Part shown: positions 58,030 through 62,810 of the stretch, piece by piece
How positions within the stretch are numbered: the stretch's first letter is position 1
Layout of the letters: every line of letters starts with the position of its first letter
Source: Desulfatiglans anilini DSM 4660
GTDB lineage: Bacteria; Desulfobacterota; DSM-4660; Desulfatiglandales; Desulfatiglandaceae
DNA length: 64,000 nucleotides
Direction: 5' to 3'
Assembly (NCBI RefSeq): GCF_000422285.1
Contig: NZ_AULM01000005.1
Span: 124,001-188,000, forward strand
Translations under genes and position numbers: made by a program
Notes under the pieces: model-generated
What the model was told of the DNA's origin: nothing
What the model saw: the letters and a program-made list of their open reading frames with translations, nothing else
Database searches by the model: none

Positions 58030-58629
58030 TCAAATGAGCGCTCGGACGTATTTCCTCTGACCTTTGAGCCCTTGCACAAAATCCTCAACCAACCGCTCCT
58101 GGTCCTCGCTTGAAAACGCCTTTATGATGCGCTCTTGAACCAGTTCGACCGCCATTTCCGCAAGCTCCGCATTCAACTGCTTCTTGCCAGCGGCAACGAT
58201 GGCCTTCGACTCGAACTCGGCCTTATCCAGCATCCTTTTGGCCTGCTCCTTCGCCTGCTGGATCACCTCTTCCTTCTCGCGCTGCCCGATTTCGACCAAC
58301 CGCTGCCGGATCTCTTCGATCCGGGAATCGATGTCGGCAAGTTTGGCGGCCTCCGCCTCCACGGCAGCACGTTTTTCGCTGAGCTTCCCTTCGAGTTCCT
58401 GCAGGTTCACCTCGATCTTGTCCTTCTGACCGCGCAGGAAATCCATCAGGGGCTTTTTGGCGAATTTGATGAACAGAAAGACCAGGATGCCGAAATTGAC
58501 CCACAGCATGACATTGTCCCAGAGCTTCCGGCCGCTGCTGATCTCGGCGGCCTCCGCCAGGGAAACGGTCAACAAGACACCTGCGCCGAGGCAGATGAAA
58601 AAGATCGATCTCCTGCTGAACACGTTCAA
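58030..58629 (-). CDS. atpF: ATP synthase Fo, b subunit
   Basis: 199 residues. An N-terminal signal-like segment (SIFFICLGAGVLLTVSLAEAAE) precedes the membrane helix VMLWVNFGILVFLFIKFAKKPL and a long charged helical stalk (LQELEGKLSEKRAAVEAEAAK), ending EDFVQGL. Forms the peripheral stalk with the b' subunit. Overlaps b' by 4 bp. Last gene of the Fo cluster. Confidence 0.88.
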   Translation of the reverse strand: MNVFSRRSIFFICLGAGVLLTVSLAEAAEISSGRKLWDNVMLWVNFGILVFLFIKFAKKPLMDFLRGQKDKIEVNLQELEGKLSEKRAAVEAEAAKLADIDSRIEEIRQRLVEIGQREKEEVIQQAKEQAKRMLDKAEFESKAIVAAGKKQLNAELAEMAVELVQERIIKAFSSEDQERLVEDFVQGLKGQRKYVRALI

Positions 58630-59057
58630 GCTTCTATCCTCCTGCCGAGCACCTTCGGGATGATCTCATCGACGAGCGCAACGGCGTGATCCCTGAGCGA
58701 CGGCCTGGCCTCAGCCAACTCCCGCTCCACCTCCCCGGTGACCTTCGCCCGGATGGACGACACCGTTGCCTGCGCCTGGTCATACTCGACCATAGCCTCG
58801 CTGATGGCCTCTTCCCTCAGTTTGTTTCGCTCTTTGCTGGCGGCGCGGATGGCTTTTTCCTCTTCCCGCATGTACCGCTCCGCCATTTCAACGGCCTTCT
58901 GCTCGGCTTCCAATATATCGTTTTGGGCCTTCTCCATGTGCTCCTGCCTCGCCTTAATCAGTTTCCAGATCGGCAGGATCATCAGGTGCTTCAGGATGTA
59001 CATCAGCACCAGGAAATGAACCACTTGGGCGATCAGGGTCGCATTGATACTAATCAT
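58626..59057 (-). CDS. ATP synthase Fo, b' subunit
   Basis: 143 residues. N-terminal membrane segment (INATLIAQVVHFLVLMYILKH) and a charged coiled region (EKAQNDILEAEQKAVEMAERY). A second b-type subunit as in many deltaproteobacteria, cyanobacteria and photosynthetic bacteria, giving a bb' heterodimeric stalk. Confidence 0.88.
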   Translation of the reverse strand: MISINATLIAQVVHFLVLMYILKHLMILPIWKLIKARQEHMEKAQNDILEAEQKAVEMAERYMREEEKAIRAASKERNKLREEAISEAMVEYDQAQATVSSIRAKVTGEVERELAEARPSLRDHAVALVDEIIPKVLGRRIEA

Positions 59058-59081: not shown

Positions 59082-59366
<285 letters not shown>

Positions 59367-59375
59367 CTAAAACCC

Positions 59376-60356
59376 TTAAACGACGAATATCAGAACCAGA
59401 CTGACAACCATCGCATAGATGGCCGTGGATTGCGAAACCGCCTGACCGACCAGCATCGTTCTGGTCAGATCGCCGGCCGACTCGATGTTCCTTGCGACCC
59501 AGGCCACGGCACCCTCCGCCGTCATCCCGTTGCCGATTCCAGGACCGATTCCGCCAAAACCCATGGAGATGCCCGCCCCCAAAAGCGCCATCGCCGGTGC
59601 CAGAGCGGCCGTCTCGGGCAGGGCCCGGAACATGAGAATGAAGCTGACCAGCAATCCGAAGATTGCGGGCGTTTGCGAAACCGCCTGCCCCACCAGCATG
59701 GTCGTGGTTACCTGGCCCAGGGTCTCCGGATTGCGCGCGATGCCCTGGCAGCTCGCACCGGCGGCCATTCCGCCGCCGATCCCCGACCCGATGGACGCCA
59801 GCCCGGTGCTGAGCCCCGCGCCAAGGTATGCGGCCCACATCGGCATGACGGGAAGGCTTCCCGGGTTCATGAACATCAACATCAGCGCGACCACCATCGA
59901 GAAGATCGCCGGTGTCTGGGATACCGCTGAGCCGATGAGCATATTGGTGGTCAGCCGGCTCGTGAAGGCGGGCTGGCGCGCCATGCCCTTGCAGGCCTCT
60001 CCTGCGGGGAAGCCCGCGCCGATCCCCGACCCGATGGCCCCGAACCCCATGCAGACGCCTGCACCGAGGAGCGCCGCCGCGCGCAGGAGGTTGTCGCCGC
60101 CGGAGGCTGTGAAAAGCAGCAGGATCGCAATGACCAGGGCGAAAATAGCCGCTGATTCGGCGATCGCCTGGCCGACCAGCATGTTCTTCAAGATGTCGCC
60201 CGACTTGTTGGGTCGATAGGAAAGTCCTTCGTTCGCAAGGCCGGCCGTGTACCCTTCACCGAGTGCGGCCCCGATGGCGCCGAGGCCGATGCACATTCCG
60301 GCGCCGACAAAGGATGCCAGCCTGATGAGCGTCGCTGTGTCCATGTCCATAAACAT
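59376..60356 (-). CDS. Fourfold c-like subunit (four tandem c hairpins) of ATP synthase
   Basis: 326 residues, about eight membrane helices, made of four c repeats of 80-81 residues. The helix-2 carboxylate is Glu67 only in repeat 1 (GQAIAESAAIF); the matching positions are Gln147, Gln228 and Gln309 in repeats 2-4 (AVSQTPAIF, AVSQTPAIF, AVSQSTAIY). The helix-1 second carboxylate is Glu34 in repeat 1, then Ala114, Gly195 and Asn276. So one ion site is left per four hairpins. ATG 60356 starts 2 bp after the atpB stop; a longer frame to 60746 is in the wrong frame over atpB. It would mix with, or replace, AtpE in the rotor. Confidence 0.9.
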   Translation of the reverse strand: MFMDMDTATLIRLASFVGAGMCIGLGAIGAALGEGYTAGLANEGLSYRPNKSGDILKNMLVGQAIAESAAIFALVIAILLLFTASGGDNLLRAAALLGAGVCMGFGAIGSGIGAGFPAGEACKGMARQPAFTSRLTTNMLIGSAVSQTPAIFSMVVALMLMFMNPGSLPVMPMWAAYLGAGLSTGLASIGSGIGGGMAAGASCQGIARNPETLGQVTTTMLVGQAVSQTPAIFGLLVSFILMFRALPETAALAPAMALLGAGISMGFGGIGPGIGNGMTAEGAVAWVARNIESAGDLTRTMLVGQAVSQSTAIYAMVVSLVLIFVV

Positions 60357-60358
60357 AG

Positions 60359-61033
60359 CTATTTTACCTGTACCGAGATGTAAACAAGGGTTAGCATGGT
60401 GAACACAAAGGCCTGAATGGTCCCCACGAAGAGGCTGAAGAAGCAGATCAGCAGCGGGGGCAGCAGAATGCTGTAGATGAGGTGGGAAACGACGAGGATG
60501 ATGATCGCTCCTCCGAGGATATTCCCGTAAAGACGAAAGGAGATGGAGACGACCTTCGCGATTTCCCCGATGATGTTGAGCGGGGCCATAAAGAACATCG
60601 GCTCGCAGTATTCTTTCGCGTACTTTTTGAACCCTTTGGCCTTGATTCCAGAGTAATGGGCGATGACGAAGCCCAAAATCCCGAGGCTGAGAGGAGTGTT
60701 CAGATCCTTGGTAGGCTCGGAGAGCTTGGGAAAGACACCCAGCCAATTGCAGAGGATCAAAAACATAAAAAGGCTGCAGATCAGCGGGAAGTATTTCTTC
60801 GCCATTTTTTCGTCGAGGGCATCGCGGGTCAAGTCATGGAAACCGCCGACGAAAAGCTCCGCCACGACCTGAAAGGGATTGGGCAGGATGCCCTTTTTGC
60901 GCGTCGCGAGAAAACCGAAGAGGATCAAAATCGCCATGACGATCCAGGTCATGATCAGCGTGTCCCGGTTGAACACGAGGTTCATGCCGAACAGCTGGAG
61001 GGTCCACTGCGGGATACTGGTCAGGTCTTCCAT
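60359..61033 (-). CDS. atpB: ATP synthase Fo, a subunit
   Basis: 224 residues, five to six membrane helices. The essential Arg lies in IAKVVSISFRLYGNILGG, with the last helix region LFVGTIQAFVFTMLTLVYIS conserved. N-terminal part: KGILPNPFQVVAELFV and LCNWLGVFPKL. Forms the ion half-channels against the c ring. It precedes the fourfold c gene by 2 bp. Confidence 0.95.
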   Translation of the reverse strand: MEDLTSIPQWTLQLFGMNLVFNRDTLIMTWIVMAILILFGFLATRKKGILPNPFQVVAELFVGGFHDLTRDALDEKMAKKYFPLICSLFMFLILCNWLGVFPKLSEPTKDLNTPLSLGILGFVIAHYSGIKAKGFKKYAKEYCEPMFFMAPLNIIGEIAKVVSISFRLYGNILGGAIIILVVSHLIYSILLPPLLICFFSLFVGTIQAFVFTMLTLVYISVQVK

Positions 61034-61075: not shown

Positions 61076-61477
61076 CTACTGCGATGTCCCTCCGCCGGTA
61101 AGAGGACGAATGACCAAATGATCGGCGATCATGACAATCTGAACCGCGAACAAACCCACCGCCACCGCCGGAAAGTTGAATGAGGGGGACTTGGCCGCCA
61201 GGATCAAGGGCACAGCAAGAACGATATATCTCGTTGCGATCGAGGCCAAGCCGGTCATTCTGGCGCGGGCCTGGCTTCGGCCGAGAAGAAGCGGCCCCCA
61301 GATGCCCATCAGCAGAAAATTGACGACGCTGAAGGCGGCACCGAGGATCAGGCCCTTTCCCAGAGGGCGCTCCCCAAGCAGGATAAAAACCACCGCCCCC
61401 GCTATGAAAACCAGCAGGGCCTTTGCGGCGATTTTTGCTTGAAAACGGCTGACCTCGGCGAACGACGTATCACGCAT
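61076..61477 (-). CDS. ATP synthase subunit I-like membrane protein
   Basis: 133 residues, four hydrophobic segments (KALLVFIAGAVVFILLG; GLILGAAFSVVNFLLMG; ATRYIVLAVPLILA; VAVGLFAVQIVMIADHL). The layout and position before atpB fit the AtpI-like (ATP_synt_I) family, thought to help c-ring assembly or Mg2+ delivery. Overlaps the upstream atpZ-like gene by 8 bp. Confidence 0.82.
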   Translation of the reverse strand: MRDTSFAEVSRFQAKIAAKALLVFIAGAVVFILLGERPLGKGLILGAAFSVVNFLLMGIWGPLLLGRSQARARMTGLASIATRYIVLAVPLILAAKSPSFNFPAVAVGLFAVQIVMIADHLVIRPLTGGGTSQ

Positions 61478-61760
61478 CTTTGTTCTGCTTGTCTGTATCG
61501 CGGGTCACTTCCATGATCTGCCGATAGGCGGTGTATCCACCACCCGCGATACCCAGAAGGATGAATATGGTGATGAACAGGCCCTTCGTGTGCAGCCACT
61601 TGTCGAGGTAGTATCCTATAGCGAAGCAGAACAGGATAGAACCAGCGATGGTCAATCCGACCTGGCTGACAAGAGCGACGTCATCAACCCATTTGCCGTG
61701 CTTCTTTATATTGAAGATAGGCCTCTCTCCGAGCTTCGGCGCGGCACGCAGCCAAAGCAC
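61470..61760 (-). CDS. AtpZ/AtpI family protein
   Basis: About 96 residues, with two membrane helices (LTIAGSILFCFAIGYYLDKWL; LFITIFILLGIAGGGYTAY), the AtpZ pattern. AtpZ/AtpI is reported to aid Mg2+ or Ca2+ transport in Fo clusters. The start is uncertain: no ATG is suitably placed, and GTG at 61760 is offered as a likely start within a frame open to 61847. First gene of atpZ-I-B-(c4)-E-F'-F. Confidence 0.75.
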   Translation of the reverse strand: MLWLRAAPKLGERPIFNIKKHGKWVDDVALVSQVGLTIAGSILFCFAIGYYLDKWLHTKGLFITIFILLGIAGGGYTAYRQIMEVTRDTDKQNKDA

Positions 61761-62048
61761 TCCGATGCACGCGCGGATTGGGGCACATCTATAGAATGAA
61801 AGACACCGTCTGTCAAGGGCAAAAATGAGAAGAAATACTCTGTCCACGCGATGCCAGGGGCCCGCGGCGGGTAGGACAAGGGCCTGCTCGGTCTCCCCGT
61901 TGTTTCAGAGTGTTCCGGGTCCTCCGCCGCGCCGCTCCCTGCACTTCGAAGCAGGAAGAAATTCAGTCCCACCGCTTCGCGGCGGGTCCCGGTTTGGCCA
62001 ATAGCTAGATCCATCCGGAAAAGAGCATCCGGCGCGGTAAAGTTTCCA

Positions 62049-62180: not shown

Positions 62181-62264
62181 TCTTGTTGACCGGTCGTTTT
62201 ATTGTGTAATATGGGTAGTATCATAGTCTGTAATATTCCGATAAACAATGAGACTTGGTTGAAG

Positions 62265-62810
62265 ATGAAGGCACGGGAATCGGTGGATTATTTGCTCCTT
62301 GGCTCTTTGGCGGCTGGACCGAAGCACGGCTATGAGATTCTGCAGTTCCTCGAACAGCATTTCGGCCCGGCCTGGTATGTCGGCAACAGCCAACTTTATA
62401 CCGTTCTGAAGAGACTCGAGAGGAAACGGCTCGTTTCTTCGGAGGTGAGGTCTCAGGAGAACCGCCCGGCAAAACGGGTGTTTTCCCTCACGGCCGCGGG
62501 CCGATCCGCCTTCCAGACGTGGCTCGGGAAACCTGTGAAACACATCAGGGATATGCGCGTCGAGTTCATCGCCAAGCTTTTCTTCGCGGGGCATATGGAA
62601 ACGCCGGTGCTGCGCCGCCTGATCCTGGCCCAGCAGGATATCCTGAATAAGAGCTCCGAGCGGATCCTCTCCCGTCTCCAAAAGGAACAGGACGGTTTCT
62701 CGCGGCTTATTCTTTCGTCCAAGCTCGCTATGGCCCGATCCTGGACGGCATGGCTCCACGAGAGCGTGGAGCCTTACATCGAAACATTTGGAGGAACCGC
62801 GCATGGATGA
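62265..62810 (+). CDS. PadR family transcriptional regulator
   Basis: 181 residues. Winged-helix start ESVDYLLLGSLAAGPKHGYEILQFLEQ and the wing SQLYTVLKRLERKRLVSS, then the PadR C-terminal helical dimer domain. Starts ATG 62265. Upstream, TTGACC and TAATAT (62186..62212, spacing 15) may be the promoter, and TGTAATAT occurs twice 24 bp apart, a candidate operator. It overlaps the next gene by 8 bp and so probably regulates that operon. Confidence 0.88.
   Translation: MKARESVDYLLLGSLAAGPKHGYEILQFLEQHFGPAWYVGNSQLYTVLKRLERKRLVSSEVRSQENRPAKRVFSLTAAGRSAFQTWLGKPVKHIRDMRVEFIAKLFFAGHMETPVLRRLILAQQDILNKSSERILSRLQKEQDGFSRLILSSKLAMARSWTAWLHESVEPYIETFGGTAHG

Follow-up and report, generated by a model that had tools for sequence, protein, structure and literature searches.

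A four-hairpin c subunit retaining a single glutamate site, encoded in a second Fo operon of Desulfatiglans anilini

The ion/ATP ratio of a rotary ATP synthase is usually taken as fixed by the number of its c subunits. What kind of rotor, then, could be built with a c subunit in which four hairpins are fused into one chain and three of them have lost the ion-binding carboxylate? The question is raised by a gene of Desulfatiglans anilini DSM 4660, located in the stretch of 64,000 nucleotides that was analysed here (contig NZ_AULM01000005.1, positions 124,001 to 188,000; hereafter the window). Our reading, to which we assign a probability of about 0.75 on the basis of sequence comparisons, is that this gene encodes the rotor subunit of a second Fo of the F/V-hybrid type, which would contribute four hairpins and one ion site to a mixed ring formed with the ordinary c subunit, AtpE.

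The fused c gene and its family

The gene was defined by Pfam, by a direct check of residues and by AlphaFold:

59376..60356, minus strand: fused c subunit P0001, four hairpins, site pattern E-Q-Q-Q

The open reading frame on the minus strand comprises 326 amino acids plus a stop codon, the plus strand of the same interval is broken by stops, and Pfam recognizes four ATP-synt_C stretches in the protein (E 9.2e-58). A 326-residue c protein of four hairpins had already been proposed in the initial annotation of this DNA, which gave no strand, and these results bear it out. Since several homologues begin at residue 3, the start of the protein may be Met3 and not Met1. At the helix-2 site, the residues of the successive hairpins are Glu67, Gln147, Gln228 and Gln309, and their helix-1 partners are Glu34, Ala114, Gly195 and Asn276; the loss of the helix-1 carboxylate in step with that of helix 2, also described in that annotation, was thus confirmed residue by residue. 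The AlphaFold model, obtained with 71 four-hairpin sequences as input, reached a predicted local distance difference test score (pLDDT) of 95.3 and a predicted template modelling score (pTM) of 0.91.

Relatives were gathered from a relatives search, from a genome collection (best 80 of 179 matches) and from 394 genomes of the phylum, the Desulfobacterota being the group sampled. In the phylum sample, 45 of the 394 genomes and 33 of the 248 genera were positive for a fused c at E 1e-23. Altogether, 120 distinct sequences with at least two hairpins were obtained, with a range of 2-6. The pattern EQQQ is the commonest (49 sequences, that of the window included), followed by EQQE (25), EQQQE (11), EQQQQ (7), EQEE (6), EQQQQQ, EQE and EQQ (5 each), EQEQ and EQ (2 each), and by single cases of EE, QQQ and SE, the last being a V-type K subunit. 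The QQQ entry, from locus L010, is what remains of a protein after its first hairpin, which is read there as a frame of its own, and L157, one of two EQ sequences, ends at a contig edge. The search for homologues with three to five fused repeats and the E/Q pattern was therefore productive, and no homologue with four carboxylates was found among the 120 distinct relatives. The view that the fourfold E-Q-Q-Q version is unusual did not hold, as it is the most frequent form in a widespread family.

Two regularities were observed across these sequences. The first hairpin has Glu in every complete member and the second has Gln in all members except L163 (genome G175), where an ordinary c precedes a c of two hairpins that each retain the carboxylate (EE). 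Moreover, the loss of the carboxylate in helix 1 goes along with that in helix 2, the combinations being E/E in 166 cases, non/Q in 313, non/E in 9 and E/Q in 0. Some hairpins of L013, L015, L060, L072, L096, L098, L041 and L161 combine a helix-2 Glu with a helix-1 Val, Leu, Ile or Lys. The carriers are marine sulfate reducers, among them cultured Desulfosarcina, Desulfatitalea, Desulfatibacillum and Dethiosulfatarculus; the pattern is E-Q-Q-Q in Desulfosarcina widdelii and E-Q-Q-Q-Q in Desulfatitalea alkaliphila. Fused-c Fo operons also occur in L054 and L067, whose records are titled as symbionts of the gutless worm Olavius, and in L113, whose record bears the title Eth-SRB2. RnfC scored above the cut-off in 24 of the 45 fused-c genomes versus 73 of the 349 others, a comparison that ignores kinship and was not used as evidence; the window genome has no RnfC above the cut-off.

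The neutral hairpins are maintained by selection. Between the window genome (G000) and G001, of the same genus, the four hairpins show about 40 synonymous and 0 nonsynonymous differences, which, together with the occurrence of E-Q-Q-Q in 49 members, leads us to reject chance or sequencing error. Omega in the other computable pairs was 0.025-0.086 overall and mostly 0.02-0.1, Gln hairpins included, and the Gln hairpins are constrained about as much as the Glu hairpins. In addition, hairpins are orthologous by position: in almost all classes, hairpin 1 of the window protein has its nearest counterpart in the first hairpin and hairpin 4 in the last, with a tie between hairpins 4 and 5 in EQQQE. 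In EQQQQ, hairpins 2 and 3 share 70% identity, and the longer chains seem, from such comparisons, to owe their length to duplicated hairpin-2-like units. Changes are frequent on the tree, at least 15 in hairpin number and at least 32 in site pattern, as would be expected of a decaying duplicate in which repeats expand and sites are lost neutrally. This explanation is nevertheless very improbable in view of the purifying selection on the Gln hairpins, their orthology by position, the invariant Glu of hairpin 1, the presence of strict Gln instead of random residues, the joint loss of both carboxylates and the neighbour rule described below. A decayed or artefactual gene was rejected on account of the purifying selection and the patterned loss of sites.

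A neighbour rule for the site residues

The remaining residues of the site follow a rule that links each hairpin to the next one. Tyr70 (Fusobacterium nucleatum numbering) is present in hairpin k if and only if hairpin k+1 carries Glu, which is true in 361 of 366 cases; it is kept before 53 of the 56 Glu hairpins and lost before 308 of the 310 Gln hairpins. The same trend was observed for Thr/Ser67, kept before Glu in 51/56 and lost before Gln in 299/310. Hairpin 3, for instance, reads mostly QTPxIF in EQQQ and QTTAIY in EQQE. Of the 70 last hairpins whose own residue is Gln, 68 still display Ser-Thr-Tyr; L157, the sequence truncated by the contig edge, is among the two that do not. The hairpin's own Glu was rejected as the cause of Tyr70 retention, given that Glu goes with Phe70 in hairpin 1 and that Gln often goes with Tyr70 in the last one, and a rule based on the previous hairpin did not fit the data.

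Relatedness among the sequences was taken into account with a tree built from the concatenated a, AtpE, b, b', AtpZ-like protein and hairpin 1. On this tree the state of the last hairpin changes at least 11 times, and the phylogenetically independent pairs gave 7.6 for the rule and 0 against it, of 9 (median p 0.008, range 0.008-0.07). An earlier tree, based on a and AtpE only, contained too few supported pairs, and the longer concatenation gave more.

In the ring of I. tartaricus, Ser66 and Tyr70 are supplied by the neighbouring subunit. More generally, the adjacent subunit completes the site in solved Na+ rings, and the neighbour's Val63 O is named in one such account (PMC3692424). We infer that the hairpins pack in chain order, with the carboxylates coming from one hairpin and the Ser/Thr/Tyr set from the preceding one, and that a fused chain would build working sites together with each of the two chains flanking it. 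Ring assembly with sites across chain boundaries would, in turn, imply fewer ions per turn. The neighbour rule accordingly lends support to the fewer ions per turn that had been foreseen for this rotor, and it would agree both with the mixing of fused c and AtpE, put forward in the same proposal, and with an all-fused ring.

The operon, known relatives and the proposed rotor

The fused gene belongs to an operon on the minus strand with the order AtpZ-like, AtpI-like, a, fused c, AtpE, b, b'. Its other members are:

61470..61847, minus strand: AtpZ/gene-1-like protein (Pfam PF09527, E 1e-17)
61076..61477, minus strand: AtpI-like assembly protein (Pfam PF03899, E 1.3e-5)
60359..61033, minus strand: atpB, subunit a of the same Fo as the fused c (Pfam PF00119, E 1.1e-53)
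59082..59339, minus strand: ordinary AtpE, single hairpin, 85 residues (Pfam and residue check)
58626..59057, minus strand: subunit b (Pfam PF00430, E 3e-11)
58030..58629, minus strand: subunit b' (Pfam PF00430, E 1.9e-10)

The atpB product retains the SFRLYGN motif, stator arginine included, and AtpE displays the two-carboxylate Na+ motif E32, V63, E65, S66, T67 and Y70 (again in F. nucleatum numbering). Of 117 loci, 115 have an ordinary atpE adjoining the fused c gene, and all 114 readable copies of this atpE encode these six residues. The operon of the window encodes a second Fo but no F1, and F1 genes are absent from most of the relatives' operons as well. Hence the initial annotation was right in placing a V-like rotor subunit with a real loss of sites in an F-type Fo operon, next to an ordinary AtpE.

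The closest known relative of the fused c is the E-Q c1 subunit of the F/V-hybrid rotor of Acetobacterium woodii, which is the best match of the AlphaFold model among solved structures (4bem_J, Z 16.2, root-mean-square deviation 1.4 over 156 residues) and also the best match by sequence (E 1.7e-24). Each is a multi-hairpin c protein whose gene adjoins that of an ordinary F-type c within an F-type operon with the Na+ motif, and in both a first hairpin with Glu is followed by one with Gln. A. woodii also fits the Tyr70 rule, with AETSGIF in hairpin 1 and AQTTGIY in hairpin 2 of c1, and AETTGIY in c2. The differences concern the number of hairpins, two with one neutral in A. woodii c1 as against four in the window and 2-6 in the family, with up to five neutral ones in a row, and also helix 1, which has Gln and not Glu in A. 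woodii c1, whereas in the Desulfobacterota family the helix-1 Glu is lost along with that of helix 2. Moreover, we take A. woodii c1 to be encoded together with its own F1, unlike the fused-c operons, in which F1 is usually lacking and is present in families f24, f35 and f47. The two-hairpin E-Q form of c1 is reported for A. woodii and Clostridium aceticum in a previous study (PMC7911925).

Fused hairpins with one carboxylate per chain are likewise found in the V-type K/c subunits (Enterococcus hirae NtpK, 2bl2, and eukaryotic V-ATPase c), and the fold of the fused c matches these V-type subunits with Z of 12.5-13.6, the V-type c rings as a whole lying at about 12-14. These subunits, however, have two hairpins and occur with V-type operons and subunits, while the window protein has four and is flanked by F-type a, b and b'. 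We know of no V-type K/c with more than one neutral hairpin between carboxylates. The identity as a V-type K was discarded: with the curated V-type K model the fused c reached at best 115.8 bits, below the cut-off of 188, its neighbours are F-type, and the A/V-type operon of the genome lies elsewhere (contig C4). Models of F-type c, on the other hand, pass for the fused c, for example TIGR01260 (145.1 versus a cut-off of 43.95). Identity as an N-ATPase c was also discarded, as the order beta-epsilon-X-X-a-c-b-alpha-gamma is not that of the window and the N-ATPase operon is found on contig C7; P0001 exceeds the TIGR03322 cut-off only when its four repeats are summed, and AtpE stays below it (66.2 versus 130.85).

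As for AtpE, its Glu32 and Glu65, Val63, Ser66, Thr67 and Tyr70 are those of the F. nucleatum c11 ring (3zk1), as given in PMC3692424. That c has a single hairpin and forms a homomeric ring; the fused chain of the window has the two-carboxylate Na+ motif only when neighbouring hairpins complete the site. Fused c hairpins are functional in the engineered single-chain c10 of Bacillus PS3, although that fusion is artificial (PMC8809890).

Based on these comparisons, we propose that the four fused hairpins would take four consecutive places in the ring while providing a single ion site in place of four, and that the fused chain most likely joins the neighbouring ordinary AtpE in one mixed ring. 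In each working site, both carboxylates would belong to the same hairpin, and Ser66, Thr67 and Tyr70 to the hairpin that precedes it. Hairpin 1 of the fused chain would rely for its site on the final hairpin of the chain before it, and the site-less hairpin 4 would complete the Glu of the chain that follows. If m of the chains in a ring of N hairpins are fused ones of four hairpins, the ring would carry N-3m ions per turn. With N=11 and m=1, an example taken from the A. woodii ring of 4bem (9 chains of c2 and 1 chain of c1), Na+-driven synthesis would require 8 ions per 3 ATP (2.67 per ATP), versus 11 (3.67) in an unfused ring.

Some observations weigh against this proposal. In the fused c10 of Bacillus PS3, a single E56Q abolished ATP synthesis (PMC8809890), so that three Gln hairpins in a row would need a mechanism for crossing the gap, and the angle between successive carboxylates would be about 131 degrees if N=11 and larger in longer chains. 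Hairpin 1 of the fused c itself is without Thr67 and Tyr70, and the operon, as mentioned, is without F1 genes. Finally, sequence evidence alone does not separate a mixed ring from one in which the fused c assembles without AtpE (e.g., 3 copies, 12 hairpins and 3 ions per turn), AtpE serving in another ring or at another time. Such a ring would also satisfy the neighbour rule if hairpin 4 completed hairpin 1 of the next fused copy. We consider it unlikely, since the gene adjoining the fused one in 115 of 117 loci is an AtpE with every Na+ ligand, the ring that serves as precedent, that of A. woodii, is mixed (4bem), and a ring of 11-14 hairpins cannot be made up evenly of five-hairpin chains.

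The probable F1 partner of the fused-c Fo

If the fused c is part of a mixed ring that drives ATP synthesis, which F1 would it serve? The window genome contains five rotary-ATPase sets, on contigs C2, C4, C5, C6 and C7 (L123, L126, the window, L125 and L124): F1 with its own b/b' is on C2, the A/V-type ATPase on C4, the fused-c Fo on C5, an ordinary a-c pair on C6 and the N-ATPase on C7. A full-length delta, or oligomycin sensitivity-conferring protein (OSCP), was found exactly once in each of the 33 genomes tested, three of them with an extra partial match. By contrast with this single OSCP, subunit a has two or three full-length copies in 22/22 entries, the third, where present, being N-type by score and position. 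One full-length F-type beta (TIGR01039) was detected in 20 of 22 entries (810-862 bits); only a 302-position fragment (507.5 bits) lay above the cut-off in G439, and G436 had none above it and none full-length (best match 191.9 bits). Both 22-entry scans count one genome twice, as G092 and G440. A second F1 for the fused-c Fo was rejected from the OSCP and beta counts. Pairing with the F1 of the N-ATPase was also rejected, because ten genomes with two genes for subunit a lack any beta that scores as high as that of an N-ATPase (G236, G092/G440, G273, G343, G078, G438, G441, G442, G443 and G444).

The simplest reading of one OSCP and two or more a per genome is one F1 with two Fo modules, and the fused-c Fo probably docks on the single F1 of its genome. 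In families f24, f35 and f47 the operon is complete (a-cN-c-b-b'-delta-alpha-gamma-beta, with epsilon in most), and in f80 the fused-c Fo and F1 pieces are on two contigs that, as a pair, fit the same order. In G078, G172 and G234 it is the fused-c Fo that is joined to F1, the ordinary a-c pair being the separate one. These arrangements bear on a further explanation, according to which the fused-c Fo makes no ATP and is a separate Na+ channel, or an Fo braked by neutral hairpins that stall rotation. The lack of F1 genes in the operon of the window and most relatives would agree with it, as would the end of synthesis after a single E-to-Q change in PS3 (PMC8809890). Even so, we regard it as quite unlikely, given the continuation of a-cN-c-b-b' into delta-alpha-gamma-beta in f24, f35 and f47, the matching contig pair of f80, the retention of b and b', and the F1-contacting polar-loop residues present in most Gln hairpins (R/K in 279/310, P in 251/310).

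The ordinary c beside the other a has Gln in helix 1 (Met in the window genome) and E-S-L (with L) in place of E-S-T, and is thus without Thr67. By the all-residues criterion of ProAD (PMC11738941), this c might tentatively be classed as proton type. Whether one F1 alternates between this ordinary Fo, of proton type by the Thr67 criterion, and a Na+ hybrid Fo with the fused rotor is in our judgement a matter of even odds. Were it so, the cell could switch both its coupling ion and the ions spent per ATP by the choice of the attached Fo, and evolution would tune the ratio by adding neutral hairpins, with 2-6 fused and mostly 1-3 sites per chain.

Extra Fo genes have been noted previously, as an ectopic second Fo in Desulfococcus oleovorans (PMC4154653) and as multiple atpE copies in Desulfatiglandales (PMC13343851), but the available portions of these accounts hold no fused hairpins, E/Q pattern or shared F1. 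In the open-access literature, so far as its text was available, no description was found of bacterial fused c proteins of 3-6 hairpins, of the grammar of their sites or of two Fo that share a single F1. The family, in which a fused chain holds between one and five neutral hairpins, offers a natural series of rotors with which to test how the ion/ATP ratio is set, and it bears on how a ring crosses a carboxylate-free stretch at subunit a and on whether a single F1 could serve two Fo; as the family occurs in cultured sulfate reducers, these points are testable. Divergent from the Fo operon of the window, at 62202-62810 on the plus strand, lies a gene for a PadR-family protein, which is a candidate regulator.
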